NCBI RefSeq assembly: GCF_900104305.1
Contig: NZ_FNJC01000002.1
Coordinates: 620,001 to 684,000 of the forward strand
Direction of reading: 5' to 3'
Length of the DNA: 64,000 bases
Origin: Filomicrobium insigne
GTDB lineage: Bacteria; Pseudomonadota; Alphaproteobacteria; Rhizobiales; Hyphomicrobiaceae
Each line of letters opens with the position of its first letter. Within the stretch, counting starts at the first letter, position 1. The notes below the pieces were generated by a model. The model saw only the letters and a program-made list of their open reading frames with translations. It had not been told where the DNA came from and did no database searches. A program made the translations under genes and the position numbers. This document shows positions 38,451-62,079 of the stretch, one piece after another.

Positions 38451-38527
<77 letters not shown>

Positions 38528-38559
38528 ACAATTTCAGCATGATTTCAGCAAGTTAAGAG

Positions 38560-39064: not shown

Positions 39065-39961
39065 TCACATGAGTAAGTCCCTGTGGGACTTCGTTGCCGG
39101 GATCGCACTCAGGAACTCGTCCTGGTTCACGACCGCGAGAGGTGCCAGTGTCGGATCGTCGATGGTTTTGGCGGCTTCCAGGCGAAGGCGCTTGTTGAAG
39201 TAATAGAGCAGCGCCCGACGGACCGGCACCGTTACGCGGCCGTCGGGCATACCGTATTCATGGGCGATGGTTCGCCTGTCTCTTTCATTCAATGCCGGGT
39301 TCGGTTCCAGCACGACGTCGAGGAAGGAGAACCAGAGGTCGTCTTGTGCTGGTTCTGCGCCCGGCTCGTGCAATTCGCCGACGGCAAGGCAGCGTGAAAG
39401 CACGAAATCCTTGAAGATCTTGTCGATGTGGCAGAAGGCCCGGACGTGCCATCGCAGTCCGTCATGACCAAAGGCGTGCGGCGTAATTCGCCGCCACATC
39501 GTTTCCTCCCTTTGCGGGTTCATCGACCGGTGTTCGACCTCGATCGAACGATGCGCACGGATTGCCGCCAACAGCCCCTTGAGGATGGCGGGGTCGACCT
39601 TGCGCCGTGGGATCGGCATTGCCTCGGCAGCGGGTGCCGCGCCTATCCATGTCTCGTCTACGCCGATCACGCGGTCGGCAATCGCTTCAAGCTGTGCAAG
39701 GTACCGGTCGGCATTGGGCTTGATAAAGCGCGGCTTGAACCGCGGGGTTGCCACGAAGCGTTTGCGGCTGCCGTCGTAGTCGATGTTTCCGGGCGCCCGA
39801 TCCCGGTACGTGGCGAGGTCTCCTGAGGCCTGCGGGGTCGAAACCCCGAACCGGCTGGTGATGTCCCCCCGCTTTAGCTCACCGTCCCAGAATAGCCGAA
39901 ACTCAATATATTCAAGGCGTTGCTCGACTCCCCATCTGATTTTTTCTTCCGTGGTTCCCAA
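39065..39961 (-). CDS. WYL-domain transcriptional regulator (BrxR/CapW-like)
   Basis: A 298-residue protein with an N-terminal winged-helix region (about residues 14-60, RFGVSTPQASGDLATY), a WYL domain (about 120-205, with IEVEHRSMN, ITPHAFGHDGLRWHVRAFC and FVLSRC) and a C-terminal domain. This is the architecture of BrxR and CapW, homodimeric repressors beside BREX and CBASS operons. TTG at 39961 is the start, with GAGG six bases upstream and no in-frame ATG nearby. It is divergent from the MBL gene, so it most likely represses the MBL/E2-E1-JAB/patatin operon, and perhaps BREX too. Confidence 0.88.
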   Translation of the reverse strand: MGTTEEKIRWGVEQRLEYIEFRLFWDGELKRGDITSRFGVSTPQASGDLATYRDRAPGNIDYDGSRKRFVATPRFKPRFIKPNADRYLAQLEAIADRVIGVDETWIGAAPAAEAMPIPRRKVDPAILKGLLAAIRAHRSIEVEHRSMNPQREETMWRRITPHAFGHDGLRWHVRAFCHIDKIFKDFVLSRCLAVGELHEPGAEPAQDDLWFSFLDVVLEPNPALNERDRRTIAHEYGMPDGRVTVPVRRALLYYFNKRLRLEAAKTIDDPTLAPLAVVNQDEFLSAIPATKSHRDLLM

Positions 39962-40016: not shown

Positions 40017-40108
40017 GAGGGTATACACATCAGAATCGGTGGTCAACGTCCTCGTTCGGGGCGCGGTTGCATCGCTGGTGCATAACTCGAATTTCGGGGC
40101 CTAGAGCC

Positions 40109-41242
40109 ATGACCGCCACTTTGACTTTCCATCCGCTTGGAAACGCGGATTGCACACGCATCGACTTCGCCGACGGCCGGAAGATGCTTCTCGACTATGC
40201 CGATATGCGGAACGACAGCGATCCGTTCGATGTCCGCTGCGATCTGCCTGAGGAGCTGCGCAAGGACCTCAGGGCGGCGCGCCGTGACAATTACGATGTC
40301 GTCGCCTTCACCCATCTCGACGACGACCATTGCTGCGGATCGGACGAGTTCTTCTGGTTGGAACATGCGCTGAAGTATCAGGGTGAGGGGCGCATCCGCA
40401 TTAAGGAGCTGTGGGTCCCCGCCGCCGCGATCCTTGAGGATGGTTGTCAAGACAGCGCACGCGTCATCCGCCAAGAAGCGCGGCACCGTCTCAGGAAGGG
40501 CGAGGGCATCCGCGTCTTCTCCCGCCCGGCCAAGCTCAAGAAGTGGATTGAGGACAACGGCATGTTCTGGGAGTCACGCGCCCATCTGGTGGTCGATGCC
40601 GGCCAGCATGTGCCGGGCTTCACCAAGTTCGGGTCGGAGCGCGCCGAGTTCTTCGTGCACAGCCCCTTTGCATGGCGCCTCAACGAGAACGAGGTCATCG
40701 ACCGCAACGAGGACAGCATCGTCCTTCAGGCAACCTTCCTTGAGGGCGGCCGCGAGACCTACGCCCTGTTCATGTCCGACATCAATTACGACAGCATTGC
40801 GCAGATCGTCGACACGACCCGGCGCCACGGCCGTGACGACCGTCTGCTCTGGGACGTGTTCAAGATCCCGCATCACTGCTCCTACCTCTCGCTCAACAAC
40901 ATCAAGGGCGAGGACATCACCGAGCCGGTGCCGCAGGTGAAATGGCTGTGCGAGAACCGTGGCCGCGAGCGGCACACCATGATCTCAACCAGCTGGTCGA
41001 TCCCGCAAAAGGGCACGGACGAGGATGATGATGTTCAGCCGCCGCACCGGCAGGCCGCCAACTACTACGAGCGTGTTGCCCGCGCCAAGGACGGACGGTT
41101 TCGCGTGACCATGGACGAGCCCACCAAGGGCAAGCCCAAGCCGTGCCAGATTGAAATCACCGATCGCGGCGCACGCTTTCTCACCATCTCGGCGACAGTC
41201 GGTTCGGCGAGCATTACGTCCACGCCTGCGCGGGCAGGGTGA
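40109..41242 (+). CDS. Metallo-beta-lactamase-fold hydrolase of a ubiquitin-like operon
   Basis: A 377-residue MBL-superfamily protein from the ATG at 40109; the longer TTG reading at 40067 lacks support. The first metal motif is THLDDDH (residues 68-74), a second ligand is D224 in FMSDINYD, and a ComEC-like IPHH (253-256) provides the last His ligand. It has no signal peptide or membrane segment, so it acts in the cytoplasm, perhaps on a nucleic acid, nucleotide or protein. The C-terminus ends PARAG with a free terminal glycine. First gene of the operon; its TGA overlaps the next gene's GTG/ATG start region. Confidence 0.82.
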   Translation: MTATLTFHPLGNADCTRIDFADGRKMLLDYADMRNDSDPFDVRCDLPEELRKDLRAARRDNYDVVAFTHLDDDHCCGSDEFFWLEHALKYQGEGRIRIKELWVPAAAILEDGCQDSARVIRQEARHRLRKGEGIRVFSRPAKLKKWIEDNGMFWESRAHLVVDAGQHVPGFTKFGSERAEFFVHSPFAWRLNENEVIDRNEDSIVLQATFLEGGRETYALFMSDINYDSIAQIVDTTRRHGRDDRLLWDVFKIPHHCSYLSLNNIKGEDITEPVPQVKWLCENRGRERHTMISTSWSIPQKGTDEDDDVQPPHRQAANYYERVARAKDGRFRVTMDEPTKGKPKPCQIEITDRGARFLTISATVGSASITSTPARAG

Positions 41243-41244
41243 TC

Positions 41245-43524
41245 ATGGACGTGCATTCGTGGTGGACGTCCTTTGGCGATACGACGGGCGACCTCACCGG
41301 GTTCCCGTCGTATGCACGCGCACTTGCCGACTTGCTGGCGGATGGGCTGCCCGGTGCCTCACTGATCGAAGCCAGGGCCACAGCTGATGAATCGCTCTTT
41401 GGCTTGCGCATCGACGTGGAAGTGGAGCGGCCGCAACTTCTTGAGCATGACATTCGCGGCATCGAACCCATCGCCGTCATCTTCTCGAAGGACGGAGATC
41501 AGCCGTGCATCGCCGCGCTGCGCCCCGACTTTCCCGACACGCCGCATCAGAACGAGAAGCCGGAAGGCTTGCCGTGCATGTTATGCGTCGACGACCGGCC
41601 ATGGGCCGAGGCAAAGCTGACGTGGACGCCGGCCGATCTCGTCCGCCGCATTCAGACCTGGCTCGCCAAGGCTGCACGCGGAGAACTGCACGATACCGGG
41701 CGGCCTCTTGAACCGATCTTCTTTCGGGCGCCGCGTACGATCGTGCTGTCGCGTTCTGCATTATCGATCGCGACCCTGCCGCCGGAACTTGTAGGCTTTG
41801 TACATGAGGACCAGAGGGTAATTCTGGCGCGGCCCATAGCAGAGCTTGCCGGCATCCCCGATATGGGCCGGTTGATGGTCCTGGTCTACCGCGTGGAGCC
41901 GCAGCCCATGATGCGCATGCGCCATGCGCCGCGCACGCTATCGAGCCTCGCCGCCGAGATGCAGCAGTGCGGGACAGACCTGATTGCCGACCTTCAGGCC
42001 CGTACGATCGAATGGGCTGGATTGGAGAAGGACGATCTGCGCCGACTCTCGTCCTCGCTCGCAATCGTGGTTCTGTTTCCGATCAGCCGCGATGGCGGTG
42101 AGCCGTTTGATGACGTTCGTGCCTTCGTCACGCAGCAGACGGCTGGAGAGATCGGCGTTGCGCTTGGCCAATTGCTGCCGAACACAAGCGGTAAGGGGGC
42201 CAAGACCGGTTATCTTCGTGCCCTTCCTCCGGCGCAGCCACACATTGAAGGGCTTGGCCTTGAGCCCACGGATGTCCAGATCGCCTTTGACCGCGAGCTT
42301 GCTGCATCGGCCGCAGGGTGCGCACCCGACCGGCGGCGGGCGGTTCTCGTAGGGGCGGGGGCGCTCGGCTCGCAACTCGCGCTCGATCTAGCACGTGAAG
42401 GGGCGTTCGAGTGGTCGGTAGTCGATAGCGACCGGTTGATGCCGCACAACCTTGCGCGTCACGGCCTGTCAGCAGGCTACGTGGGAATGCCCAAGGCCGT
42501 CGCGCTTGCGCGGCAGATCGAGGAGCTTTTGGGCGAGCCCACGAATGCCATCGTCACTGATATCACCGCCCCGTATGAGGATGTGCGGCCCAGGCTCGAA
42601 GAAGCACTCTTGTCTGCCGATATCATCATCGACGCATCGGCTTCGGTTGCTGCGGCTCGGCACATCTCGGATCTTCCGAGCACGGCGCGTCGGGTTTCCG
42701 CATTCTTCAATCCGGCAGGCACGGCCCTCGTGCTCCTGACCGAATCCGCCGATCGCAGCGTCTCATTGAGGGATCTAGAGGCGCAGTATCACCGTCTGGT
42801 CCAGACTGAACCCGACCTCGAAGAACATCTGCGCGTCGAGCAAAGCGGCCTGCGTTATAGCGGGTCATGCCGTGCGTTGAGCAATCGCATCCCCGCCACG
42901 CGTGCCGCGATGTTGAGCGCCATCGCCGCTATCGGTATTCGGGAATCGACGGCCCAGGACAATGGCTCAATCCGTATCTGGCGCTTATCTTCCGACGGAG
43001 AGATCCGCCTTTCACGCCATGAACCGCGGCCGGTGCGGCAAAAGCAGGTCGGTTCGTGGATGCTATCCTACGATGACGGTCTGCTGGATCAGTTGACTGC
43101 GATGCGGCAAGCCGGCCTTCCCAACGAAACCGGCGGCGTGTTGCTCGGCATCGCCGATATGAGCCGGAAATCCATCCATGTCGTGAACGCTCTGCCGCCA
43201 CCCGCCGACAGCGTGGGCAGCGCAACCGGCTTCGAACGCGGCGTCGCAGGGCTCACCGATACGGTCAATGCGGCCATTACCGCGTCGTTGCACCAGCTGC
43301 GCTATGTTGGCGAGTGGCATTCGCACCCGCCGCGCTCGACTGCAATGCCGAGTTCAACCGATCTGCGCCAGCTCGCCTGGCTTCGCCACGAGCTCGAAGC
43401 AGAAGGTTTGCCCGCGCTCATGGCGATCGCAGCCGATGACGGGAGGTTCTCCTTTGTGGTGGCGGTGGCAGCAAACGACATTGCCGAGGTCCCGCAGCTA
43501 AAGGTATCGGGTGAGGGGGCGTGA
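41245..43524 (+). CDS. E2-like / E1-like (ThiF) / JAB protease triple-domain fusion
   Basis: A 759-residue protein with three parts. An N-terminal E2-like domain (about 1-160) has candidate thioester cysteines C111 and C114 after the GLP turn, followed by WTPADLVRRIQTWLAKAARG as in bacterial E2 domains. An E1/ThiF adenylation domain (about 365-590) has GAGALG (370-375), DSDRLMPHNLARH and a possible catalytic C542. A C-terminal JAB/JAMM deubiquitinase-like domain (about 605-755) has E628, HSH (692-694), S703 and D706, all metal-site residues present. It joins the jobs of Cap2 and Cap3 in one chain. A GTG at 41239 is an alternative start. Confidence 0.88.
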   Translation: MDVHSWWTSFGDTTGDLTGFPSYARALADLLADGLPGASLIEARATADESLFGLRIDVEVERPQLLEHDIRGIEPIAVIFSKDGDQPCIAALRPDFPDTPHQNEKPEGLPCMLCVDDRPWAEAKLTWTPADLVRRIQTWLAKAARGELHDTGRPLEPIFFRAPRTIVLSRSALSIATLPPELVGFVHEDQRVILARPIAELAGIPDMGRLMVLVYRVEPQPMMRMRHAPRTLSSLAAEMQQCGTDLIADLQARTIEWAGLEKDDLRRLSSSLAIVVLFPISRDGGEPFDDVRAFVTQQTAGEIGVALGQLLPNTSGKGAKTGYLRALPPAQPHIEGLGLEPTDVQIAFDRELAASAAGCAPDRRRAVLVGAGALGSQLALDLAREGAFEWSVVDSDRLMPHNLARHGLSAGYVGMPKAVALARQIEELLGEPTNAIVTDITAPYEDVRPRLEEALLSADIIIDASASVAAARHISDLPSTARRVSAFFNPAGTALVLLTESADRSVSLRDLEAQYHRLVQTEPDLEEHLRVEQSGLRYSGSCRALSNRIPATRAAMLSAIAAIGIRESTAQDNGSIRIWRLSSDGEIRLSRHEPRPVRQKQVGSWMLSYDDGLLDQLTAMRQAGLPNETGGVLLGIADMSRKSIHVVNALPPPADSVGSATGFERGVAGLTDTVNAAITASLHQLRYVGEWHSHPPRSTAMPSSTDLRQLAWLRHELEAEGLPALMAIAADDGRFSFVVAVAANDIAEVPQLKVSGEGA

Positions 43525-44669
43525 TGCAGCGAAGGGACATGCAAAGCCTCTTTGAAGCGGGGCATGCCACAGGTGATTTCCTCACCGCGAGCAAGGTCGA
43601 GGATAGCATCGGGCTTTGCCTCTCCGGCGGTGGCTACCGCGCCATGCTCTATCACCTCGGAGCGCTCACCTACCTCAACGAGATGGGCCTGCTGTCCCAG
43701 CTTGCCGAAATCGCCAGTGTCTCCGGCGGCTCAATCGCGGCCGGCGTGTTGGCCCATGGCTGGCCCCGGCTGGAGTTTCGCGGCGACGGCGTCGCAAGCA
43801 ATTTTGAGGAGGAGGTCGCGACGCCGCTTGCACGCTTCGCGCAGGTGAATGTCGATATTCGTGCTGCGCTGCTAGGATTCCTTCCGGGGCGCACGGCTGC
43901 TGACGGTGTGGCAGAGGTCTACGACCGACACCTGTTTCATGGGGTGACGTTACAGGATCTGCCAGATCGCCCGCGCTTCACTTTCATGGCCACCAACTTG
44001 CAGACCGGCAGCGCGTGGCGCTTTGCCAAAGACTATGCTGCGGACTTCCGTATCGGCCGCATTGTTCGACCCACCTTTGCTCTCGCCAAAGTGGTTGCTG
44101 CTTCGTCCGCTTTCCCGCCGTTCTTGTCGCCGGCCCGGTTTTCATTTGCCGGACATGTGGTCGAGCCGATGGATGGCGCGGACCTGCATCGGCCGCCCTT
44201 CACCGAAGGCGTTGTTCTGACCGATGGCGGCGTCTACGACAATTTAGGTCTCGAACGCATCTGGAAGCGCTGCCGCAAAATCCTGGTGAGCAATGGAGGT
44301 AAGACGGTGCCCGAGATCGGCAGGCCTACCGGCAGATGGATCGGGCAAGCGTACCGTACGCTGAACATAGTCCTGCAGCAGGCGGAACACTCCCGCCGCC
44401 GCATTCTCTTCGGTATGGGCAATCTGGAACAGCGCGACGTCGTCTATTGGAGCATCGACACTCCGAACTCATACTACGGCTTGGTTCGCGCCAACGACCT
44501 CGGTGATGAGGGCAATCGCTGCGCCGCCGCGATCGCAACGAGGCTTGCCCGTTTACCGAACGAGCACATAGCGCTGCTTCAGCGCGCGGGCTATGAGAAC
44601 TGCCGCGCAGCCCTTCAAGCCAGGGGCGACGGATCAGATCGGCGCCTGCGCTTAGGTAAAATTGCTTAG
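43524..44669 (+). CDS. Patatin-like phospholipase, probable effector
   Basis: A 381-residue patatin-domain hydrolase. The oxyanion motif GGGYR is at residues 35-39, the nucleophile is S70 in SVSGGSIAAG, and the catalytic Asp is in TDGGVYDNLG, so the Ser-Asp dyad is intact. The family cleaves acyl chains from membrane phospholipids; the CBASS effector CapV is a patatin. No signal peptide. Its ATG overlaps the stop of the E2-E1-JAB gene (TGATG) behind a GAGGGGG site, so it is part of the same operon. A GTG at 43521 would add one residue. Confidence 0.9.
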   Translation: MQRRDMQSLFEAGHATGDFLTASKVEDSIGLCLSGGGYRAMLYHLGALTYLNEMGLLSQLAEIASVSGGSIAAGVLAHGWPRLEFRGDGVASNFEEEVATPLARFAQVNVDIRAALLGFLPGRTAADGVAEVYDRHLFHGVTLQDLPDRPRFTFMATNLQTGSAWRFAKDYAADFRIGRIVRPTFALAKVVAASSAFPPFLSPARFSFAGHVVEPMDGADLHRPPFTEGVVLTDGGVYDNLGLERIWKRCRKILVSNGGKTVPEIGRPTGRWIGQAYRTLNIVLQQAEHSRRRILFGMGNLEQRDVVYWSIDTPNSYYGLVRANDLGDEGNRCAAAIATRLARLPNEHIALLQRAGYENCRAALQARGDGSDRRLRLGKIA

Positions 44670-44887: not shown

Positions 44888-47800
44888 GTGGTGGTGAATA
44901 AGAAGCCAAAACCCACCGGCGCCCAGCAGCGTAAGAATCGCCGAACGGCAGCAAGTGGAGGCGCGCCGGCGCGATCGCGCCGTAGCTCCGGGAATCCAGG
45001 CTACGCCGGCTATGAGTATCAGATCGAGGTCACCATCTGGGTCGCCCTTGATCTGATGCTGGTGAAGAATGCGACGGCGGAAGTCGAGATCGAGCCGAAG
45101 TCGGATGAAGACCTCCAAGCTGCGATTACGGATCCGGCGTCGGGCTCGCTTGGTCTCTCCGCAGCGGGTGAGCGGCTCGACTTGGTCGTTCAGGCAAAGA
45201 CCCGATCAGGGTCGCCATGGACGACGGCCGCGATCGCGGACGTGCTGCTTGGAAAGGACGCTGCGGACGATGATGCACGAAGGAGGCGAAGCCGACCGCT
45301 AGCGATGCTGCAGGAGGATTTGGAGCGGCGGTACATCTTCATCACCAATGAGTCCTCGGCGGAAAGTCTACGGCCTCACGAAGGTAGTCATCTGTTCGAT
45401 TTCCCTGAGGTCGAAGAGCTGCCGCCTCACGCCCGCGACGACTATGACGCGGAGGCTCAGGCCTCCCTCGCTCCGCGAATTGTCCTTCTGACGGGGATCA
45501 CGCGAGAAGTATTGGCCGGGCGGATCGGAGGCCTGCTGTCGCTCCACGGCCATGTGCCCAGCTCAAAGCACGAAGCGTGCATCGCGGACCTGCGCGATGC
45601 CGTTCGAAAGCGAATTGCGGGCGCGAAAGGCGGGCGGTGGACGCGTTCGGATTTGCTTGTCGTGTTGGTTCGGCACGGAGGTTCCGTGGCGCCAACCCGC
45701 GACATGGATCACTATGTCCGGCCGCGCTCATTCGAGACGATCAAGGAGCGGCTCTACACATCGAATGCTGTCGTCATCACGGGTCCGTCCGGCACGGGCA
45801 AGACGCTGACGGCCGATATTCTTGAACTGGAGCTGCGCCGCGGTTCTCCTCCGTTCGACGTCATCGGCGAGGAGCATGGCCCGGGATTTGTTCGGCAGCA
45901 CCTGACGCGGTCGGATCCTATTCTTTTCCACTTGCGTGATCCGTGGGGTGGCAATCGGATCACGCCGAGCGCGGACCGTTGGAGCAGCGAACTTCCAAAG
46001 CTTCTCGATAATGCGGGACCAGGCCGCAAGTTCTTGATCACCTCGCGGTCCGATGTCATGCAGAGTGCTGGTCATGAGTTGCTGAAGGGATTGAAGTCCT
46101 ACACTGTCTCGATCGAGGTCGAGGACTACGGTTCGGGAAAGCTGGCAGAAATCTATGATGCGATCGCCGGCGATCTGAGGGGGCATGCGCGCGCACTCGC
46201 CGTCGCGTATCGCACTCGCGCACTTGAAGCCTTGTCGCGTCCCTATGAGGTGAAGCGGTTTCTCGTCGCACTCAGTCGCGAAAATTCTGATCAGCCGCGC
46301 AAGGTCGACGACGTCATCGCAGATTCACAGATCGAAGCTATCTCGAGCGTTATCGCTAGCCAGATCGCGTCGTTTGACCTGGATGGCGTGGAAAGCGCTG
46401 CGATCATCTGGGCCATGCTCAGCGCGCGTGGCGCCGTCGCCCGCGACGTGTTCGCCAAGCTGACCCGGCGGATGAGGATGGCCGACTCGACGATGCATCC
46501 GAACGTCGAGGGCCTGATCGACTTCCTCGTGGCGGGCCAGAACCTTCGGCAGGACGGCGCCGCGTTGGCCTTCTACCATCCGCGGGTCGAAGATGGACTG
46601 CGGATGACATTTCTGCGCCGTAGGCCCGCTGCCGAGCACACGCTCGCGGCCGTTGTCAACGCGCTCGTCGCGTGGGACGCGGAAGGCGCAGACTGGGGAA
46701 CAGAAACGGGTCTCGGCGTGTTGCGAGCAGCGAGCCGCGTGGAAGGATTGGAACTGGCGATCTCCGACAACACGCAACGACGGCTTAATTCCTATCTCGA
46801 AGCGGTGGCGCTATCCGCTGACCGGGGATCGGATTTCGAGGCGGCGCTGCGGGATCTGGCGCGGTTTGCGTCACCGGATCATGCGCCAAGCCGGTTGGCC
46901 AAAATCCTTGTCGAGGGCGGACCGGAAACTGAGAAGACGATTTTCCAGGATCGCTGGAGTGCGCCACGGCTTGATGATGAAGAGTCCGAGGTGCTGCGGC
47001 GTGATGAGCGCACGAAGGGTCTCATCGAGCGCTTCATTCGAGAGGTCCTTCCCTTCTCGCATCGCGAGTATCATTCGGAGGTGGTGCCGCTACTCCACGG
47101 GTTGGCCGAGGGCCTTCAGGAGGCCTTTTGGGATGCGCTCGATGTGGTTGCAGGTCCGGGCGGCCCAAATGAGAACATCGACGCGATCGTTCAGGGCGCG
47201 TTGCTATCACCTGCTCCGGACTTCGACCGGGCGATCGCGCGCTTCGCGAAGTCCAATGCCGACGCCGACGCATGGCTGGAGAACTATCGAAACGAAGCCT
47301 ATGAGGCGGAAGAGCACGCTGTTGACGCGGATGCTGCCGATCACATCTTGGAGGAACCTGGCGAGCAATACTTCAACGCACGCCAGGGCATGAAAGTAGT
47401 GGTGCGACTGAGGCAACGGCGCAATGGCGTTGATTGGATCGCGGGGAACCCCCACCGAAACCTCCTCATATATGCCTTAGCAGAACTCGTCGCCGAGAGT
47501 CCCCGAAAGCCAACGTTGGCCGAGCTGAGATTTCTGCTCGCCAATGCTGAAGGCTGGACGCGCGGTCAAGCCTGGCGCGCTGCCCAGCGGCACTGGCACG
47601 CTGACCTGAGCGACTTGCTCCGTGCCGAGTTGGTGCGCGACGATATGCAGGAGGCGAGCTTCCGTCAGCTTCTCATTGAGATCGCCGCGACGGGCAGCGC
47701 GCGCCACGATCCGCTCCCCGCATTGATCGCTGTCCTCTCGGACACCACCATTCAACGCCGTATCGAGCTCCTTTACGATATAATGGCCGCGCGGTTAGAC

Positions 47801-49177
47801 GAGGATCCGACAGGCGTATCTGGCGTGGCGCTCCGACGCCATCGCGCTGAGGGACTGGTTGGCCATTTCGATGACGCTGAGCGTGGACTAGCGCGCGCCC
47901 TGGTGCGGGTGCTAGCGCGCGAGGAGATCAGCGCGGTCGCGGCTACGCTATCCATCGAAGATCGCGCAAGGCTCGCGACTATTTTGCCGGCCGTCCCGGC
48001 CGATCCCGCAGGCCCTCTTACGTGTTTGGCGGCGGCCGCTGGTCTGGATGTCGACGCGACCGTGCAGCGGTTGTTGTCGATGGACGATGAGGGCGACGGC
48101 AGTGCTGCAGTGCAGGCAATGCTGATTGCGAGCGGTCCTGGGTTGCGGGACGAGTTGATGAAAGCGCTCAAGCACAAGCGCTACAAAGTGCGGCGGAAGG
48201 CGCTTCTCCGGCTTATTCCAATTGCGACCGCGGAGGACCGGGCGGTACTTGTCGGTACTTCACGCGACCACAGTGCCGACATGCGGCTTGCGTTTGCGAA
48301 CCTCATGGAAGAACACCAGTGGCCGGAAGCGATCGATGCCTTAATCGGTTTGCTGAGCGACATGAGAAACTTCGCAAGTCAGCTCGCTCCCGCACCCTCG
48401 TGGTCGCGATATGGGGTGGCTCGCGCCGCAGCCCGAGCATTGGGCGCTTATGAAAGGCTGCCCGATCAAGCGATCGACGCTCTGCTCGAGACGGCGTCTA
48501 AGGAATCAGCCGATCCGTTTGTGGCCGGTGCGGCGCTGAGGGCGCTCGCACGACAGGACGACGATCGAATCGGGCCAACCCTCCTAGCGGCCCTTGAGAG
48601 CCGTGGATTGAATGACGCGCCCTCCTATCGTCCGAAGGCGCAGGCCGCGGCGTGGGCGCTCTTTGATCGAGTGACGGACGAGAGGCTTAGCACCCTCGGC
48701 ACTACCGCCTTGCGTATCGCGGAGCAGGATGATCCTGCAGTGGCCGGTCCGCTCCTCATCGCGTTCGGCGTCTTGGAAGGCGTTGAACGGGACGCTCTGC
48801 TTGAGCGGCTGCGGGACATGGATAACGAGCATAGGCACGCCCTCGTTCGCACTTCGGCTATAGCCGTGGACAGGGCGGATGGCCTCTCGTTGGACGAACG
48901 GGAGCGCAACCTGCAGAGATTGGCGCGCGGAGAAGCCCTGGACGGGCTGAATGCAGACGGGCGCGCAACTCTTGAGGCGTGGAGCCTTGGCCTGAATGTG
49001 GAGAATGGGTTCGAGCACTATAGCGCATGGATTGCCGATGCCGTGTTCAAGTTGCCTCTGTCGGGTGAACTGGGGCAGATTAGGGCATACAATCTTCCCG
49101 CCCGCATCGGCCTCATGACGATGCGTTCAATGTCTCCCTATGGGGAAGAAAACCGTGGGGAGGACGACGGCACGTGA
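44888..49177 (+). CDS. Endonuclease-like / STAND NTPase with HEAT-like repeats (Avs-like)
   Basis: A 1429-residue protein. After a basic tail, an N-terminal PD-(D/E)xK-like region (about 38-225) begins GYAGYEYQIEVTIW and has the D98-x3-Q-x-K104 core in LDLVVQAKT. A STAND-type NTPase follows (about 275-560) with Walker A GPSGTGKT (299-306) and a DPWGGNRI/FLITSRS region. The C-terminal half (about 700-1370) is helical and repeat-like, with HEAT-type units such as KHKRYKVRRKALLRL. This is the plan of antiviral STAND proteins: nuclease, switch, sensor. Three successive GTG codons at 44888-44896 are possible starts; GAAGGGA upstream best fits the second or third. The 218 bases before it hold no gene that I can support. 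Confidence 0.78.
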   Translation: MVVNKKPKPTGAQQRKNRRTAASGGAPARSRRSSGNPGYAGYEYQIEVTIWVALDLMLVKNATAEVEIEPKSDEDLQAAITDPASGSLGLSAAGERLDLVVQAKTRSGSPWTTAAIADVLLGKDAADDDARRRRSRPLAMLQEDLERRYIFITNESSAESLRPHEGSHLFDFPEVEELPPHARDDYDAEAQASLAPRIVLLTGITREVLAGRIGGLLSLHGHVPSSKHEACIADLRDAVRKRIAGAKGGRWTRSDLLVVLVRHGGSVAPTRDMDHYVRPRSFETIKERLYTSNAVVITGPSGTGKTLTADILELELRRGSPPFDVIGEEHGPGFVRQHLTRSDPILFHLRDPWGGNRITPSADRWSSELPKLLDNAGPGRKFLITSRSDVMQSAGHELLKGLKSYTVSIEVEDYGSGKLAEIYDAIAGDLRGHARALAVAYRTRALEALSRPYEVKRFLVALSRENSDQPRKVDDVIADSQIEAISSVIASQIASFDLDGVESAAIIWAMLSARGAVARDVFAKLTRRMRMADSTMHPNVEGLIDFLVAGQNLRQDGAALAFYHPRVEDGLRMTFLRRRPAAEHTLAAVVNALVAWDAEGADWGTETGLGVLRAASRVEGLELAISDNTQRRLNSYLEAVALSADRGSDFEAALRDLARFASPDHAPSRLAKILVEGGPETEKTIFQDRWSAPRLDDEESEVLRRDERTKGLIERFIREVLPFSHREYHSEVVPLLHGLAEGLQEAFWDALDVVAGPGGPNENIDAIVQGALLSPAPDFDRAIARFAKSNADADAWLENYRNEAYEAEEHAVDADAADHILEEPGEQYFNARQGMKVVVRLRQRRNGVDWIAGNPHRNLLIYALAELVAESPRKPTLAELRFLLANAEGWTRGQAWRAAQRHWHADLSDLLRAELVRDDMQEASFRQLLIEIAATGSARHDPLPALIAVLSDTTIQRRIELLYDIMAARLDEDPTGVSGVALRRHRAEGLVGHFDDAERGLARALVRVLAREEISAVAATLSIEDRARLATILPAVPADPAGPLTCLAAAAGLDVDATVQRLLSMDDEGDGSAAVQAMLIASGPGLRDELMKALKHKRYKVRRKALLRLIPIATAEDRAVLVGTSRDHSADMRLAFANLMEEHQWPEAIDALIGLLSDMRNFASQLAPAPSWSRYGVARAAARALGAYERLPDQAIDALLETASKESADPFVAGAALRALARQDDDRIGPTLLAALESRGLNDAPSYRPKAQAAAWALFDRVTDERLSTLGTTALRIAEQDDPAVAGPLLIAFGVLEGVERDALLERLRDMDNEHRHALVRTSAIAVDRADGLSLDERERNLQRLARGEALDGLNADGRATLEAWSLGLNVENGFEHYSAWIADAVFKLPLSGELGQIRAYNLPARIGLMTMRSMSPYGEENRGEDDGT

Positions 49178-49433: not shown

Positions 49434-49725
49434 TTGGGGGTTCGCGGCCACGAGCGGCTACCCCGTAAGTGGCGAGTCAGCGGCCTTTGCCGCCGATTTC
49501 TAGCGAGCAGAGGTCCGCAATTGAATATCCCGTGGATGTATTAAGTCGACGCAAGGCCGAGTTCCAAAACATCAATCGGGCTGGCCGGGGAGTTGGGTGG
49601 ACCATCGTCCGCTTTCCGTTTGCAAGCAGAGGTGCCGCTGGCCTATGGCCGTAAAGGCTGGCGTCGAAGGCACCTCAACTGAGCTGTGGACGATAGATCG
49701 CACCATGTTGCGTCCGGTCCAGCGT

Positions 49726-49740
49726 TGGCCAAAATGGCCA
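49726..49740. promoter_or_regulatory. Candidate operator TGGCCA-AAA-TGGCCA
   Basis: Two self-complementary TGGCCA hexamers spaced by AAA form an inverted repeat 27 bases before the Phd/YefM start. This position is typical of autoregulation by such antitoxins; binding is not shown. Confidence 0.45.
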
Positions 49741-49767
49741 CTTTGCAGATGTTCGGGATGGTGCTCG

Positions 49768-49968
49768 ATGAAGTCTCTATCCGCAAAAGAGGCCAAATAC
49801 GGGTTCGGACGGCTCATCGATCTGGCGCGCGCGGCGCCGGTCGCTATCCTGAAGCACGGTCGGCCCGTCGTCGTCGTCATGGCCATAGAGGAGTTCGAAC
49901 GCCTGAAGGCCGCTAACTGCCCAACAGATCAACAGGAGGTTCCCACACAATCGATCGAGAAGACGTAG
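49768..49968 (+). CDS. Phd/YefM family antitoxin, no toxin partner seen
   Basis: A 66-residue protein. Residues 1-48 match the Phd/YefM fold: SLSAKEAKYGFGRLIDLA (DNA-binding and dimer region), then PVAILKHGRPVVVVMAIEEFERL. A short acidic/polar tail follows. A type II toxin normally starts right after; here brxE begins 45 bases later, so the toxin is absent. The longer reading from 49597 is rejected because its extra part is not antitoxin-like. It may be a decayed module or an independent regulator of the BREX operon downstream. Confidence 0.8.
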   Translation: MKSLSAKEAKYGFGRLIDLARAAPVAILKHGRPVVVVMAIEEFERLKAANCPTDQQEVPTQSIEKT

Positions 49969-50013: not shown

Positions 50014-50595
50014 ATGACTGTTCCCGATCAAGAGACCGAGCTGGACTACGATTGGCTGCTCAAGCTCCGCGTGGCCGTGGCCCGGTGCGGCGAGATGGAC
50101 CTCGCTGGGTGGTGGAACACCAGCAAGCAACTGGGACCGTCGGGTAGCTCCGTCCTCAAACGGGGTTTCCCTCGGACGCATCATTTTGCACAGGCGCGCA
50201 GCGTGATGGCTGTCGCCTCTCACCGCTGCGAGCAGCTCCTCTCGCATAACGACGCCGTTACCCTCTGGCGGCTCCCCGAGGCCCTGGAGGATCACTTCGA
50301 GTCCCTCTGGGAAACCTGGCTGGAACGCCACGCCATTTGGGGTTCGTACTTCGAGGCCATCGCCGCGATCCGCACCGGCGACGTCATAGCCGCCGCAACC
50401 GACCTCGGGCTCGTCACGAGCGACGATATCAATGCGCTCCGGGCGCTCAAGGCAGCGCCCAACGGCCGTGGACTGAACGTCGGCGACTCCTTCACGGGGC
50501 AGCGCCGACAAATCGCTCTTCTCGCTTTGGGATTCTCAGTCGGTCGCGCCAACGACCCGGTCGTCCCCTTTGTGCAAGCGAGCGCCGCCGCATGA
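50014..50595 (+). CDS. brxE: BrxE family BREX protein
   Basis: A 193-residue helical protein whose LDYDWLLKLRVAVARCGEMD start and RGFPRTHHFAQARSVMAVASHRC segment match BrxE, the marker of type 6 BREX. Its biochemical role is unknown. First gene of the BREX operon; the next gene's ATG overlaps its stop. No strong ribosome-binding site is visible ahead of the ATG, which may matter for its expression level. Confidence 0.75.
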   Translation: MTVPDQETELDYDWLLKLRVAVARCGEMDLAGWWNTSKQLGPSGSSVLKRGFPRTHHFAQARSVMAVASHRCEQLLSHNDAVTLWRLPEALEDHFESLWETWLERHAIWGSYFEAIAAIRTGDVIAAATDLGLVTSDDINALRALKAAPNGRGLNVGDSFTGQRRQIALLALGFSVGRANDPVVPFVQASAAA

Positions 50596-51377
50596 AAAAA
50601 GCGTCCAGATCCCGCGTCGTCTCTTCTTTCACCATAGTCAAAGGCGCGATGATCGCGGAGACGTATGCGGTGTTCCGCGAGTGGGACCTGCGTCGCTCAA
50701 AGCGGGAGAACCTCGATCACCTCCGCGACACCAATTTCATCGGGGCGCGCAGCGCGACCTGGCTCCGCGACGTCATCAAAGTCCTGAACCGGCGGTTCGA
50801 ACCTGGCGGCCGCGACAAGTCCCTCATGCTCCTGGCGAAGCAGGAGTGCTCCATGGAGGAGTGGAAACCCCTTCTCCTCTGGCACATGACGCGCGACGAG
50901 TTTCTGCTCCACGACTTCATCCAGCACTGGCTCTTTAAGGCCTACGCGAGAGGGCAGTTTCGCGTGCGCCCCGACGAGCTTCATCCCTACCTCAAGACGA
51001 TCAAGCGCCGAGGCGGCAAGATCGAGCATGAGTGGACAGAGGCAACCCTTCACCGAGTGGCGGCCGGGCTGCTGAAGATCGCCGCCGACTTCGATCTCCT
51101 CAAAGGCTCGGCCATTAAGGAGTTCACGGCCCACCATCTCCCGGAGCGCAGCTTCATGTATCTGCTCCACGCCATTCGCGAGCGGGAACCCAGCCCGGGA
51201 CGCCTTATCACCGCACCCGATTGGCGTCTGTTCCTGATGAGCCCAGAAGATGTGGAGCGCGAACTCTTGCGCCTCCACCAGTACCGCAAGCTTCACTACG
51301 AGGTGGCCGGTAGCCTGATGCAGCTGTCCCTGCCCTGCAAGTCCGCCCAGGGATACGCGGAGAGGATGGCAGCATGA
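50592..51377 (+). CDS. brxA: BrxA family BREX protein (DUF1819)
   Basis: A 261-residue DUF1819 protein, a small helical DNA-binding BREX component. The start MKKASRSRVVSSFTIVKGAMIAETY and the MTRDEFLLHDFIQHWLF segment are as expected for BrxA. ATG at 50592 overlaps the brxE stop; a longer frame from 50337 is only a shadow of brxE. Its stop overlaps brxB. Confidence 0.88.
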   Translation: MKKASRSRVVSSFTIVKGAMIAETYAVFREWDLRRSKRENLDHLRDTNFIGARSATWLRDVIKVLNRRFEPGGRDKSLMLLAKQECSMEEWKPLLLWHMTRDEFLLHDFIQHWLFKAYARGQFRVRPDELHPYLKTIKRRGGKIEHEWTEATLHRVAAGLLKIAADFDLLKGSAIKEFTAHHLPERSFMYLLHAIREREPSPGRLITAPDWRLFLMSPEDVERELLRLHQYRKLHYEVAGSLMQLSLPCKSAQGYAERMAA

Positions 51378-51949
51378 GTGAGTTGCAGTACCGTATCACC
51401 CGGCACCTGGAGCCGGCCCTCAGCCTCGCCGATCCGCGGCCGCGGCTCAGCGCCTATCACGACATGCCCTACGCCATCTTCCGTTACGGTGCCGAGGACG
51501 AGTTCGAACTGCGATCGGCGGTCCGTCGATTGAAGACGCGATTGGAGAACACGGGGAAACGCGTCACCGAAATCTCTCTCGCGGAATGTTTGCAGACAGC
51601 TATCGAGTCCGAGCGGCCGCTCGAGTCCTGGTATGGGGCCGAACGCGAAACTGAGCCCGAGACGATTGCTCAGACCCTGTCCAATCTCTTCGACGACCGT
51701 CAGCCGTTGGTGGACATGGTCGGCGCGCGCATGCCTGCCGAGGCCGATCCCCTGCAGGACATCGTCTTCATCGTCAGAACCGGCGCGCTCTTTCCGGTCT
51801 ATCGAACCTTCTCGCTCTTGGAACAGCTGAAGGGACGGGTCGTCGCGCCGACCATCCTCTTTTACCCTGGCGATCTCGACGGAGCCGCCGGGCTCCGCTT
51901 CATGGGCGTCTTCGACGCCGAGCACAATTATCGTCCCAAGATCTTTTGA
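51374..51949 (+). CDS. brxB: BrxB family BREX protein (DUF1788)
   Basis: A 191-residue DUF1788 protein. The PLQDIVFIVRTGALFPVYRT and APTILFYPGDLDGAAGLRFM segments and the terminal NYRPKIF are typical of BrxB, which is needed for BREX modification and defence in characterised systems. The ATG overlaps the brxA stop (ATGA). Confidence 0.9.
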   Translation: MSELQYRITRHLEPALSLADPRPRLSAYHDMPYAIFRYGAEDEFELRSAVRRLKTRLENTGKRVTEISLAECLQTAIESERPLESWYGAERETEPETIAQTLSNLFDDRQPLVDMVGARMPAEADPLQDIVFIVRTGALFPVYRTFSLLEQLKGRVVAPTILFYPGDLDGAAGLRFMGVFDAEHNYRPKIF

Positions 51950-51960
51950 GGGGCATGGCT

Positions 51961-54900
51961 ATGTCGACGATCGCGACCCTCTTCTCCGGGGATGTTTCGA
52001 GGCGGATCGAGGAGGTCATCAAGGTCGACCAAACCTCGGCCGAGGTCATTGCGTCCGAGTTGGACGAGTACGTGGCGACGGACTCGATCCGGCGGCATTT
52101 CGTGGACGTGCTCGAGCTCTATCTCGAAACTCCGCGCAAGCCTCACGAAGGCATCGCCGTCTGGGTCTCGGGCTTTTTCGGCTCCGGCAAGTCCAGCTAT
52201 GCGAAGATTCTGGGGCTCGCGATCGAGAATCGCGACGTCCTGGGTATAGGCGCAGCCAAGCGCTTCGCAAGCCGCACCGGCGACGCCAAGCTGACGGTTC
52301 TTCTCGACGGCATAAACCAGAACATCCCGACCCATACCGTCATCTTTGACGTGTCGACGGATCGTGGCATCCGGTCCGGCAACCAAATGCTTACCGAGAT
52401 CATGTACCGCCTCTTCCTCGAAAGCCTTGGTTACGCCAAGGACATCGAATTGGCGGAGCTGGAGATCGACCTCGAGACGAGGGGGCAGCTGTCGGAGTTC
52501 GAGACAGCTTTCAAAACGCTTCACGGCAAGGACTGGAATACCGAGAAGGGAATGCTCTCGTTCGCCATCGGCGAGGCAAGCGCGACCATGAGCGTCCTCC
52601 ATCCGAAGGTCTATCCCCAACCCGATTCCTGGGCCAAAGGTCGCGCCAAGGTCGACGTGTCTCCCGGCAAACTCGCCGATCGAGCCACAGAGCTCATGGA
52701 GCGCAGGCGTCCTGGTCACGCGCTCATGTTCGTCGTCGACGAGGTCGGCCAATTCGTCGCGCGTGATGTGCAGAAGATGCTCGATCTGCAAGCCATCGTG
52801 CAACAGCTCGGAGTCAGAGGGCGCGGCAAGCACTGGATAGTGGTCACCTCGCAAGAAAAACTAAGCGAGATTGTCAGTGGGCTTGACGACAAGAAGATCG
52901 AGCTGGCGCGTTTGATGGATCGCTTTCCCACGCAGGTCCATCTCGAACCCTCAGATATTTCGGAAGTGACCAGTCGGCGCGTTCTAAAGAAGAACGGCGC
53001 GGCCGAGAAGGCTCTGGGGCAGCTCTTCGATCAACACCGCGCTCGACTGGAAGCCTCGACCAAACTCACGGCGGATATCTCGTTCCCACCACTCTCGCGA
53101 CAGACGTTCATCGACCTCTATCCGCTGCTGCCCTATCAGATCGTGTTGATCATAGACATCGTCTCCGGGCTCAGGACCCAGGGCGGCGCGAGCAAGCACG
53201 TTGGCGGCGCCAACCGAACCATTATCAAACTCGCACAGCAGATTCTCATCAATCCCGCCACCAATCTCGCCGGCTCGAGCACCGGTGCCCTGGCGCGACT
53301 GGATCACGTTTACGACCTTATCGAAAGCAACATCGCCTCAACGGTCAGGGCCAAGATCGCCTCGATCCCGCAGCGTGTCTCCCACCCGCTGGCACAAGCC
53401 GTGGCAAAGGTCGTATGCCTGCTCCAGTTTGTCCCAACAGTTCACCGCACCGCGGAGAACATCGCCGGCGCACTGTTCGAAAAGGTCGATGGCGAGTCGA
53501 AGCTGCCCCCGGTCAAGGAGGCCCTATCCGAGCTGGAGAAGGCGCTGATGATCCGTCAGGGCGACGGCGGCTACCGGATTCCGACACCGGCCGAGGACGA
53601 CTGGGACCAGCTCCGCTCCAGCATCGACCCGAAGGCTGCCGATCGGAAGCGGCTTTTCACGGAAGTTTTGACGACGCTGTGGACGCCTCAGCCCAACTTC
53701 AATTTGGGCGACACCAAGCTGTTCAGGGCAGGTCTGGTCGTCAACGGCACCGAGGAGATCACCGGCGACATCTCATTCCATCTTCATCTGGCCGAGACCG
53801 CGTCCGATGCCGCGCGAGATGCGCCGACACTGCGCCGACGGAGCCAACAGGATCAGAAAAGCGTGTTCTGGCTCGTCACGCTCCACGACGAGATCCAGCG
53901 CGAGCTGCGTGAAGCATTTCGCTCCGGTCAAATGGTCGACCGAAAGGGGCGCGGTGTCACAACGCCGGATGAAGCCCGCCTCATAGCTGAGGAGAAGATC
54001 CGCCAACGTAAACACATGGACGAGCTACGCCGTCGGCTTCGGCAGGCGTGCTTATCCGGCCCGATCTACTCGAAGGGCAATGATCGCAGCCCCGACAGCT
54101 CGGCGGCCGACGTCGGCAAGACTGCATCGACAATCTTGGGGCAGGTCCTGCCCGTCGTTTACGACCGGTTCAATGAGGCCTCGGCCAAAACCGCCGACCT
54201 CAAGCGGGGTACCGACGCGCTACTCTCCGCCGATAACCTGTCTGGCCTTCCCCCAGTGTTTAGCCAGTTGAACCTGCTTCGCGACGAGCGCGGCAAAACC
54301 GTGTTCCGGACAGACGGCGCCCCCCTCTCGGAAGTGCTCACATTGATCGAAGCGAAAGCCAATTATGGCGATCAGGCAACCGGCCGGTACCTCGAAGACG
54401 AGTTCTCCAAAGCCCCATTTGGATGGGACTTCGAGGCGGTTCGCCTATTCGCATTGTGCCTGCTGCGTGCGGGGCTCATTGATGCCGTCAGCAAAGGCCA
54501 TACGATCGAAACCGCCACGAGCATTCAGGCGCGGGACTGCTTCTCCAGCAATAACATCTTCCGGGCGACGAGCTTCCGCCCCAAGAAAGGAATCGACTTC
54601 GCGGTCATTGCCGAGGCAGCCCAACAGTTTAAGGATACGTTCGGACATGACATCCGCGAGCTATCCGCAACGCCCCTCGTTGCGCAGTTGCGCAAGGAGC
54701 TCGATAAGCAGGAAGAGAACTTCGATAGCGTCTTGGGAATTCTTCGCTCCGCGCGCCTGCCGGGCATCGAGCAGATCGACAATGCCGCGCAGCAGATGCG
54801 CTCGATTCAACGCGGAAGCGAAGAGAATGCCATCACGACCTTCACCGCCACTCACAAGCTTCTAAAGGATGCAATCCAGCGCGTCGCGGAGCTCTCGCGC

Positions 54901-55491
54901 TGCCTGACCGAGCCGGCGCTTCGCAACATAGAGCGCGCGCGGGCCGCCCTCTCGCGACTGCCGGTTCTCATCGCCGAGCCCGACTTCGACCCTGACCTCG
55001 CAGAGCGTGGTCGTGGCCTAGCCGACATCCTCTCCAAGGAAACGTTCTTCCGCGAGCTGTCAACCATCGACCAGACCGCAAAGGCCATCGAGGACGACTT
55101 CGATCGCCGACTGAAGGCCGCCGTCGCCGAACGTGTCACCGCCTATCTTGATGCGCATGATGCTCTCGTCGCGACCCCGGGCTGGGAGAAGCTCACGGAA
55201 GAACAGCAGAGCGAGATCGCGCATCCGATCCGCCAGGGCACGAGCCAAGGCGTCGAAGGCGTTTCGTTGCAGCAGGTGCGATCCGAAACGGAGCTGTGCC
55301 ACTCCCGGCTCGCCGCAGCTGTTCAGCGCGTCTATGAGCTGCTTGAAGGCGCCCGGCTGGCGACGGTGTCGCTCGGCCAGTATTTTGCGGGCGGCATCGA
55401 GACCGAGGAGCAGCTTGAGCAGGCCTTAACGGGGCTTCGCGAGGAGTTCTCCCGCCTCATCGGCGAAGGCAAGAAGGTCATCGTACGGTGA
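51961..55491 (+). CDS. brxC: BrxC BREX P-loop ATPase
   Basis: A 1176-residue cytoplasmic AAA+-like ATPase. Start at the ATG 51961, which has GAGGGG seven bases upstream; the in-frame TTG (51946) and ATG (51955) are poorly spaced. Walker A is GFFGSGKSS (residues 71-79), the extended Walker region includes LMFVVDEVGQFVARD, and a long helical C-terminal half follows, with coiled-coil-like stretches after about residue 960. Length and order match BrxC of type 1 BREX. It is required for BREX modification and phage exclusion in known systems. Confidence 0.93.
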   Translation: MSTIATLFSGDVSRRIEEVIKVDQTSAEVIASELDEYVATDSIRRHFVDVLELYLETPRKPHEGIAVWVSGFFGSGKSSYAKILGLAIENRDVLGIGAAKRFASRTGDAKLTVLLDGINQNIPTHTVIFDVSTDRGIRSGNQMLTEIMYRLFLESLGYAKDIELAELEIDLETRGQLSEFETAFKTLHGKDWNTEKGMLSFAIGEASATMSVLHPKVYPQPDSWAKGRAKVDVSPGKLADRATELMERRRPGHALMFVVDEVGQFVARDVQKMLDLQAIVQQLGVRGRGKHWIVVTSQEKLSEIVSGLDDKKIELARLMDRFPTQVHLEPSDISEVTSRRVLKKNGAAEKALGQLFDQHRARLEASTKLTADISFPPLSRQTFIDLYPLLPYQIVLIIDIVSGLRTQGGASKHVGGANRTIIKLAQQILINPATNLAGSSTGALARLDHVYDLIESNIASTVRAKIASIPQRVSHPLAQAVAKVVCLLQFVPTVHRTAENIAGALFEKVDGESKLPPVKEALSELEKALMIRQGDGGYRIPTPAEDDWDQLRSSIDPKAADRKRLFTEVLTTLWTPQPNFNLGDTKLFRAGLVVNGTEEITGDISFHLHLAETASDAARDAPTLRRRSQQDQKSVFWLVTLHDEIQRELREAFRSGQMVDRKGRGVTTPDEARLIAEEKIRQRKHMDELRRRLRQACLSGPIYSKGNDRSPDSSAADVGKTASTILGQVLPVVYDRFNEASAKTADLKRGTDALLSADNLSGLPPVFSQLNLLRDERGKTVFRTDGAPLSEVLTLIEAKANYGDQATGRYLEDEFSKAPFGWDFEAVRLFALCLLRAGLIDAVSKGHTIETATSIQARDCFSSNNIFRATSFRPKKGIDFAVIAEAAQQFKDTFGHDIRELSATPLVAQLRKELDKQEENFDSVLGILRSARLPGIEQIDNAAQQMRSIQRGSEENAITTFTATHKLLKDAIQRVAELSRCLTEPALRNIERARAALSRLPVLIAEPDFDPDLAERGRGLADILSKETFFRELSTIDQTAKAIEDDFDRRLKAAVAERVTAYLDAHDALVATPGWEKLTEEQQSEIAHPIRQGTSQGVEGVSLQQVRSETELCHSRLAAAVQRVYELLEGARLATVSLGQYFAGGIETEEQLEQALTGLREEFSRLIGEGKKVIVR

Positions 55492-55501
55492 GAAAGTCCT
55501 G

Positions 55502-58500
55502 ATGGAGAAGGAAACGCGCAACGCGATCCAGTCGGCGACGCAAAAGGCCCGCCGCGTGCTCGAGGATGATTTCCGGGAGCAGCTCGAGGGCGTCTACGAC
55601 ATCCACGTCGACGGATCGATCGCACCCCAGGCCGGCCCGCACCTGTCAGCCAAGGAGCAACGGCTACGCGACCGCATTGTCGCGGCCATCGAACACAAGC
55701 GCGCCGGTGGCATGAAGGCCGACCAAGCCATGCTCGACTATCTGCGCGATGCCGCCTTCACGACGCTGAACCGCATCGTCGCGCTGAAGATGCTCGAGGC
55801 CCGCGAGATCGTGCAGGAGTGCATCTCGCGCGGAGACGCATCTTCGGGCTTCAACGAGTTCAGCGGCCTCGCGCCGGGCATCAGATTTCCGGACGGCAGC
55901 GGTTATCGGCTCTATCTCGAATGCATCTTCGACGAGCTGTCGACCGAGGTGAAGGTTCTCTTCGACCGGCGTGATCCCTCCGCCGTGCTCTGGCCGAAGC
56001 GGGGCACATTCGAGCAGATATTGGAGATCCTCAACGCGCCGGAGCTTGCCGGCGTGTGGGGCGAGGATGAGACCATTGGCTGGGTCTACCAGTTCTTCAA
56101 CGGGCATGACGAGCGCCGCAAGATGCGCGAGGAGAGCCAGGCGCCGCGCAATAGCCGGGAGCTCGCCGTCCGCAACCAGTTCTTCACTCCGCGCTATGTC
56201 GTGCAATTTCTCTCCGACAACACGCTCGGGCGCATTTGGTACGAGATGCGTGGCGGCGATACCCGCCTCAAAGACGTATGCGACTACATGATGCGTCGGC
56301 CGGAGGAGACCTGGGAGGCGCGCGCCAAGAAAGACCCGCGTGACATGCGCGTGCTCGACCCGGCCTGCGGCTCCGGTCACTTCCTGCTCTACTGCTTCGA
56401 TCTGCTGCTCGTCATGTACGAGGAGGGATGGGCGGACGAATCCTCACCGGCGAGCGAGGTGACTGGCAAGACACTTCGTGAGGACTATCCCGAGATCGCC
56501 GGGCTCAGGGCGGCCCTGCCGGGGTTGATCCTTCGCCACAATCTGCATGGCGTCGACATCGATCCGCGATGTGCTCAAATCGGTCAGCTGGCGCTGTGGA
56601 TGCGGACGCAGCGGGCGTTCAAGGAGTTCGGCATCGGCCGAGCCGAACGGCCGATCATCAAACGCGCCAACATCGTAATTGCCGAGCCGATGCCGGGCGA
56701 GAAGGATCTGCTTAAGGAGTTCCTGGCCGAGCTGAAGGAGGACAAGCTCGAAGGGCTCATCCGCCGCGTGCTTGACGTGCCGGCCGACAAGCGGGTGCGC
56801 GCGACCAAGGCGATGGCAGACAGCCTCGCCGAGCTGGTCGAGACGGTATGGGATGGCATGAAGCTCGCCGGCGATATGGGCACGCTTCTCAAGATCGAGC
56901 GCGATCTGGCTCGCGCGATCGAGAAAGGTCGCGCCGAGTGGGAGGACACGCTGCCGCTGTTCCGCGTCGCGGACTATGGCCTTGGCGGCATCACCAACGA
57001 GAAGCTCGTTCGCGTCGTGCCGGGCGAGCAGGAGGACTTCTGGACGAAGGCCGAGAAGCTCGTGTTCCAGGCTTTGGCGGACTACGCGGCTGCAGCGAGC
57101 GGCACAGGCAATGCGCGGCGGAGGCTGTTTGCAGAGGATGCTGCGCAGGGGTTTGCGCTCGCTGATCTTATGTCGCAGCGCTTCGATGTTCTCCTAATGA
57201 ACCCGCCATTTGGATTGGCGACTGATGCCGGCCAAGACTATTTATCGAAACGATATGAGGGTGCACACACCGATATCTATGCGGCCTTTTGTCGACGCGG
57301 CATTGAACTTGTTCCCACGGGCCGAATCGGTGCGATCACATCGAGGTCATTTCTGGTCAATCCTCGTCACGAAGATTTTCGGACTATTGATATTATTCCA
57401 ACGTTGGAAGTCCTGGCGGACCTTGGCCTCGGTGTGATGGATGGAGCCGCAGTTGAAGCTGCTGCTTATGTCCTGCAAACAGTGCTTCCGATACGAGATC
57501 GCTTCATTGCCTGCAGGCTAGCTCCAAGCCAGCTGGAGAATTCCGGAGCAGGCGACAAATGGACGTACGTCGACAGGGATGCGACGCGAGCATTACCTGG
57601 AGCGATGATACTTTATTCACTTCCAGCGTCTGTAAACGCCATCCTGAGAGAATGCGTGCCGCTTGAGCCATCCAAAGGAACCGCTCGCGAGGGAATGAAG
57701 TCATTCGACGATTTCCGCTTTTTGCGACTGTGGTGGGAAGTGGCTCCCAACACGATCGGTTGGGGGAAGGCATGGACACCCTACGCAAAGGGCGGTGGCT
57801 ATGGCGTTTACTATCAGCCCTCCATGCTAACAATCAACTGGAGGTCAGACGGCTCTGAACTGCGCGCGTTGAATCTCCAGATCAACGGCTCAACTGCCCA
57901 AGTGCGTCAGGCATCCACTTACTGGGGGCGTTCGGGAGCTACGTATTCTAGAAGGTCGACGGGATTTACAGCTAAGGCACTGCCTAACGGACACATTTTC
58001 GCCACTATGGGCCCCGCGGTACTCTATACGGAAGAGGCAGAGAAGCGTCACCTTTACTATCTTCTGGGGTGGCTCAATTCCAGATTTGTCCGCTTCTTGA
58101 TCGAGCTGCAAGCAAATAAGCAAAACTATTTGACAGGAATTTTGAAGCGGCTGCCATGGCGGGAGCCAGACAACGAGGTGCACCAATCTGTCCTGTCTGC
58201 AGTACGCGGGGCCTGCAATGCGCTCGAACGGCATTATAGCTACCGGGACACAGATCCGCGCTTTAGAGGGCTTCCGGCTAGTTCATCGATAAAAGAACTG
58301 CATGAAGCGTTGTGCAACATACACAAACTAGCCGTCAATAACACGTTGCGTGCTCTTGAGAAATGCGATCGCGCCATCGACTCTGTCTATGGCGTCGAGC
58401 CGAGCACAATAAAGGAGATAGTCGACAATGTTGGCGCGTCATCATTCGGAGATGTAGCGCCTCGTCTTGACGCGCCTACCGTGCACTGGACGACGATGTC

Positions 58501-62076: not shown

Positions 62077-62079
62077 ACG

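Follow-up and report, generated by a model that had tools for sequence, protein, structure and literature searches.

The closest described systems are the Avs proteins. Avs1-4 have nuclease effectors, and their triggers are terminase, portal or Ksap1 (PMC12931631). Avs5 carries a SIR2 effector and an nSTAND3 NTPase (PMC12931631). The nuclease of Avs3 is of the Cap4 type and is activated by dimerisation (PMC12198126, PMC11291478), which is driven by the STAND ATPase of the same protein (PMC12198126). We studied a gene of Filomicrobium insigne whose product has the Avs-type layout, with effector, STAND NTPase and long repeat sensor in one chain. All positions refer to the window, that is, the whole 64,000-nucleotide stretch of DNA that was analysed.

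Results

The 1429-residue nuclease-STAND-HEAT frame of the original prediction is a real gene. Its features are:

44888-49177, plus strand: single gene for the nuclease-nSTAND3-HEAT protein (1429 aa, GTG start; homologs of like length, dN/dS)
44999-45367, plus strand: probable Cap4/DUF4297-like PD-(D/E)xK nuclease domain, residues ~38-160 (invariant motifs, LmuA and Cap4_nuclease profiles, shuffle-tested profile comparison)
45092-45112, plus strand: candidate catalytic acids E69 (45092-45094) and D75 (45110-45112), invariant in the alignments
45191-45199, plus strand: Q102-A103-K104, forming the QxK part of the PD-(D/E)xK motif
45713-46153, plus strand: nSTAND3 NTPase domain, residues 276-422 (PF20720, E=4.2e-13)
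45782-45805, plus strand: Walker A motif GPSGTGKT, residues 299-306, with K305 (G299, S301, G302, G304 and K305 invariant)
45938-45949, plus strand: Walker B-like motif DPWG, D351-G354 (D351, P352 and G354 invariant)
46577-46579, plus strand: H564, a histidine C-terminal to the NTPase, invariant in 11 members
48128-48667, plus strand: most conserved HEAT-repeat block of the predicted C-terminal solenoid, residues ~1081-1260 (HEAT_2, alphaRep profiles, helical model)

The frame is intact over all 1429 codons, and those of the relatives are likewise open, at 1304-1435 aa in the homolog comparison. The nearest relative (L003) is 53-54% identical over the full length, and the remaining relatives, with lengths of 1304-1404 aa, are 23-29% identical to the 1429-aa protein. 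Compared with L003, the gene has been under purifying selection (dN 0.43, with synonymous sites near saturation), the NTPase evolving slowest and residues 901-1429 fastest. From the N-terminus, a Cap4-like nuclease domain (~38-160) is followed by nSTAND3 (276-422), a helical region and an all-helical C-terminus with HEAT_2, so that the Avs-like order of nuclease, STAND NTPase and repeat sensor was found as had been claimed.

Pfam nSTAND3 (PF20720) scored 49.7 bits against a cut-off of 27.2 and was covered from position 1 to 148 of 155; the same profile matched 10 of the 11 family members. Across the family, T385, R387, Walker A, DPxG and H564 show little or no variation. The last of these may be the counterpart of the winged-helix histidine of STAND/NLR proteins.

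For the N-terminal domain, similarity to known nucleases is remote. Y44, Q45, E69, D75, L99, Q102, K104 and W111 are invariant among 14 aligned family members. The predicted QAK core is thus present as Q102-A103-K104, with both Q102 and K104 fixed, but D98, which had been proposed for mutation, reads D, D, R, L, E, R, K, R, R, R, R across 11 aligned members, and the invariant acids are E69 and D75 instead. The motif set GY.YQ, E, D and QxK occurs in the same order in the relatives of LmuA and in the family of the 1429-aa protein. PDLC03848, the PADLOC model of the Cap4-type nuclease LmuA, matched residues 38-156 of the window protein weakly (E=0.01) and the family member L008 with E=1.8e-6; in 5 of 5 members tried, it weakly matched the first ~120 residues of the domain. 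With Cap4_nuclease (PF14130), the best match among members was that of L008 (E=0.052; 14.2 bits, below the 26.2-bit cut-off), and an LmuA relative itself also matched this model below threshold. The window protein's N-terminal domain taken alone had no Pfam match, PF14130 included. A PF14130 search of 115 genomes returned 0 matches, as did its controls, and was uninformative; a PDB sequence search gave no match over the nuclease domain.

A cropped profile of the family's N-terminal domain was then compared with 12 LmuA/ABC-3C relatives, with 200 column shuffles as background. The score of 26.9 exceeded all 200 shuffles, narrowly (best 25.2, mean 11.7, sd 2.7). In a global alignment, GYEYQ fell on the GY.YQ of the LmuA relatives, with the later motifs in order; the uncropped profile aligned with LmuA over another region, outside the nuclease motifs. 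Because of the invariant motifs, the weak LmuA and Cap4_nuclease matches and a profile comparison that outscored its shuffles, we consider that the domain is probably a PD-(D/E)xK nuclease of the Cap4/DUF4297 type. The PD-(D/E)xK-like character originally proposed therefore stands as regards motifs and remote profile similarity. AlphaFold, run on a shallow three-sequence alignment, gave a model of this half too poor to judge the fold (mean pLDDT 39.5).

The C-terminal half is predicted to be all-helical, with a HEAT signal that peaks at ~1080-1260. HEAT_2 (PF13646) matched residues 1177-1246 of the window protein with E=6.7e-5, at 23.5 bits just below the cut-off of 27.7, and the best family member with E=4.4e-10; the family profile also matched alphaRep, a set of designed HEAT proteins. 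AlphaFold was partly reliable in this half, with a best local pLDDT of 70-86, again from a shallow three-sequence alignment. A Foldseek search with the C-terminal model retrieved generic HEAT/ARM solenoids whose TM-scores were low; we discarded it as evidence. Mean pairwise identity in the family is 39% in the nuclease and 36% in the NTPase, and falls to 19% in residues 901-1080 and 20% at the C-terminal end. Judged from the sequences, this gradient fits a conserved effector and switch joined to a diversifying sensor.

The family is rare, scattered and often plasmid-borne; where hosts are named, they belong to the Alpha-, Beta- and Gammaproteobacteria. Genome samples were drawn evenly, the Filomicrobium genome itself being counted each time: at the level of the order, 3 of 398 genomes had a relative, while the figure was 1 of 385 for the class and 2 of 399 for the phylum. 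Plasmid records contained a relative in 14 of 72,556 cases. A pattern scan, limited by how common the Walker A pattern is, found 3 genome contigs with a relative. The phage records searched held 0 relatives, and in a scan of viral contigs no relative was confirmed. In five loci (L013, L014, L017, L070 and L072) the gene copy is truncated or frame-broken, some of these adjoining insertion sequences; such decay is presumably common among costly defence genes.

Varied defence genes surround the relatives. One adjoins Lamassu (L016), one Qat with a CapH/CapP-like regulator (L015), one Argonaute together with PD-T7-1 and AbiEii (L020), one Argonaute and a CBASS phospholipase (L008), and one a type IIG RM enzyme (L022); Gabija stands beside the family gene in two loci. 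No recurrent partner gene was seen among the neighbourhoods inspected. The 439-aa ORFs next to the family gene in L015 and L022 were considered as a candidate partner and rejected, being mutually unrelated. Because no neighbour recurs and the defence systems alongside vary, the family is probably an autonomous single-gene system.

In Filomicrobium, the gene was expected to lie between two defence systems, and this is the case, with 6A-MBL and a patatin upstream and BREX downstream:

38451-38536, plus strand: tRNA-Met, its 3' half serving as the island's left attachment repeat
40067-44669, plus strand: 6A-MBL operon, comprising an MBL protein (40067-41242), an E2-E1-JAB protein (41239-43524) and a patatin (43521-44669) (NF058524, NF058523, PF01734)
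50014-63999, plus strand: BREX operon BrxE?-BrxA-BrxB-BrxC-PglX-PglZ-BrxL, extending past the window

Both NCBIfam 6A-MBL models, NF058524 and NF058523, scored over their cut-offs, and Patatin (PF01734) matched with E=3e-18. The frames of this operon overlap, and its end lies 218 bp upstream of the STAND gene; the next gene downstream of the STAND gene is more than 400 bp away. The attachment repeat, which corresponds to the 3' half of tRNA-Met, is exact over 49 nt, and its two copies are ~34 kb apart. The second copy (G000:C9:692791-692847; L060:9791-9847) adjoins a tyrosine integrase on the minus strand (L060:8322-9674). The defence cluster is an integrative island of ~34 kb that begins at tRNA-Met (38451-38527).

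Other genes of the island were noted in passing. The patatin, third gene of the 6A-MBL operon, is likely a phospholipase effector, and a WYL-domain protein at the island's left end (39065-39961, minus strand) is likely a defence regulator. A Phd/YefM antitoxin gene (49597-49968) lies between the STAND gene and BREX, and no toxin partner was identified for it. The BREX subtype marks are mixed: a weak BrxE match stands in front, PglX is over the BREX-1 cut-off, PglZ is nearest to BREX-6 yet under its cut-off, and BrxL comes last.

Discussion

We think it likely that the 1429-aa protein acts against phages on its own, in an Avs-like (bacterial NLR-like) manner, by means of a sensor-triggered nuclease. 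At rest, the nSTAND3 NTPase would block the activity of the N-terminal nuclease. Sensing would fall to the C-terminal HEAT solenoid, through binding of a conserved component of the invader, most likely a phage protein; upon binding, and with ATP, the NTPase domains would oligomerise and bring the Cap4-like nuclease domains together. The resulting DNA cleavage would halt infection and probably kill the cell. We infer oligomerisation, DNase activation, a protein trigger and abortive infection from Avs1-Avs4 and from the Cap4/DUF4297 nucleases, the mechanism being drawn by analogy because no Avs family model matches the protein. More tentatively, the protein may represent a distinct and undescribed Avs-like type that responds to a phage trigger other than the terminase and portal of Avs1-Avs4. 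A new trigger is plausible.

A nuclease followed by a P-loop NTPase is also an order that would suit an enzyme acting on nucleic acid. The HEAT solenoid might sense modified or replicating phage DNA, and the protein would then be closer in its action to the NTP-dependent restriction enzymes of type IV than to a protein-sensing Avs. Some enzymes, among them AlkD-like proteins, use such solenoids to bind DNA, and the family profile weakly resembles the P-loop of McrB, among other P-loop proteins. However, the curated model identifies the NTPase as nSTAND3 and not as a McrB-type AAA+ domain, and the C-terminal half resembles the protein-sensing Avs sensors in length and divergence; we therefore regard a nucleic-acid sensor as unlikely. 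Doubt may also be directed at the effector. Here QxK replaces (D/E)xK in a fold predicted from sequence, and inactive REase domains paired with NTPases serve as sensors in defence systems (PMC12839542), so that the N-terminal domain might have lost its nuclease activity and become a ligand-binding or dimerisation module, defence depending on some other activity. Yet the family shows no variation at E69, D75, Q102 or K104, and the Cap4-type relatives of LmuA commonly have QxK too (QLK or QAK in most), which makes such a loss very unlikely.

The position of the gene raises a further possibility, namely that the protein is an accessory of the adjoining 6A-MBL or BREX system and depends on it. The gene lies on the same strand as both operons, directly between them and within one island. 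Still, the gaps on either side separate it from its neighbours, and the neighbours of its relatives vary, with no 6A-MBL or BREX operon in the annotations and matches seen there. We hold this reading to be very unlikely, and favour a self-contained Avs-like protein.

How close this protein stands to the Avs proteins can be judged from models and alignments. None of the Avs models of PADLOC and NCBIfam matched the window protein at E<=1, and those of Avs2, Avs4 and Avs5 matched nothing anywhere in the Filomicrobium genome, so that Avs4 and Avs5 membership, for which curated models exist, was rejected. Avs2 membership was rejected as well, only the generic NTPase aligning, and weakly. NF041812, considered as a possible Avs3 model, is actually class_D_Cupria. 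High full-length similarity to a characterised Avs type was looked for, and the Avs models showed none; the view that the C-terminal half cannot be assigned to a known Avs type likewise held up, by the NCBIfam and PADLOC Avs models and by the failure of the Avs2 C-terminal half to align. Because no Avs model matches and Avs2 aligns in the NTPase only, the protein is, as far as sequence comparison goes, Avs-like rather than an Avs member, and belongs to a rare and apparently unnamed family. We found no published description of the nuclease-nSTAND3-HEAT architecture among open-licence papers.

Each known system shares part of this architecture. Avs2 has the nuclease-STAND-repeat order and a weak match confined to the NTPase (hhalign probability 36%), but its type of N-terminal domain is dissimilar (probability 0.2%) and the C-terminal halves do not align. 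Among PADLOC models, the candidate PDC-S73 matched best (E=7e-5 for the window protein, reaching 2e-15 within the family), although the window protein aligns with it over the NTPase only, residues 273-392 on profile positions 172-291 of 752. The Cap4-type nuclease of LmuA/ABC-3C (PDLC03848) is what the N-terminal domain resembles most in remote comparison, the two having GY.YQ ... IE..DD ... Q.K ... W in common, whereas LmuA is a separate protein of ~400 aa, its C-terminal domain being CTD7, and has no STAND domain. Avs5 resembles the window protein in its nSTAND3 NTPase and long helical-repeat C-terminus, but has a SIR2 effector where the window protein is nuclease-like, and its model NF041814 has no match in the protein or the genome. 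Avs3 shares the overall domain order and is reported to have a Cap4-type nuclease; no Avs model matches, and since Avs3 was compared by its published description only, a distant relationship to it is possible. The bacterial NLR-like sensors would thus gain a rare, widely scattered family, and if the protein is protective, its trigger would test Avs-type recognition beyond the packaging machinery. All together, the comparison suggests a combination of a Cap4-like effector, as in Avs3, with the NTPase subclass of Avs5 and a HEAT sensor.
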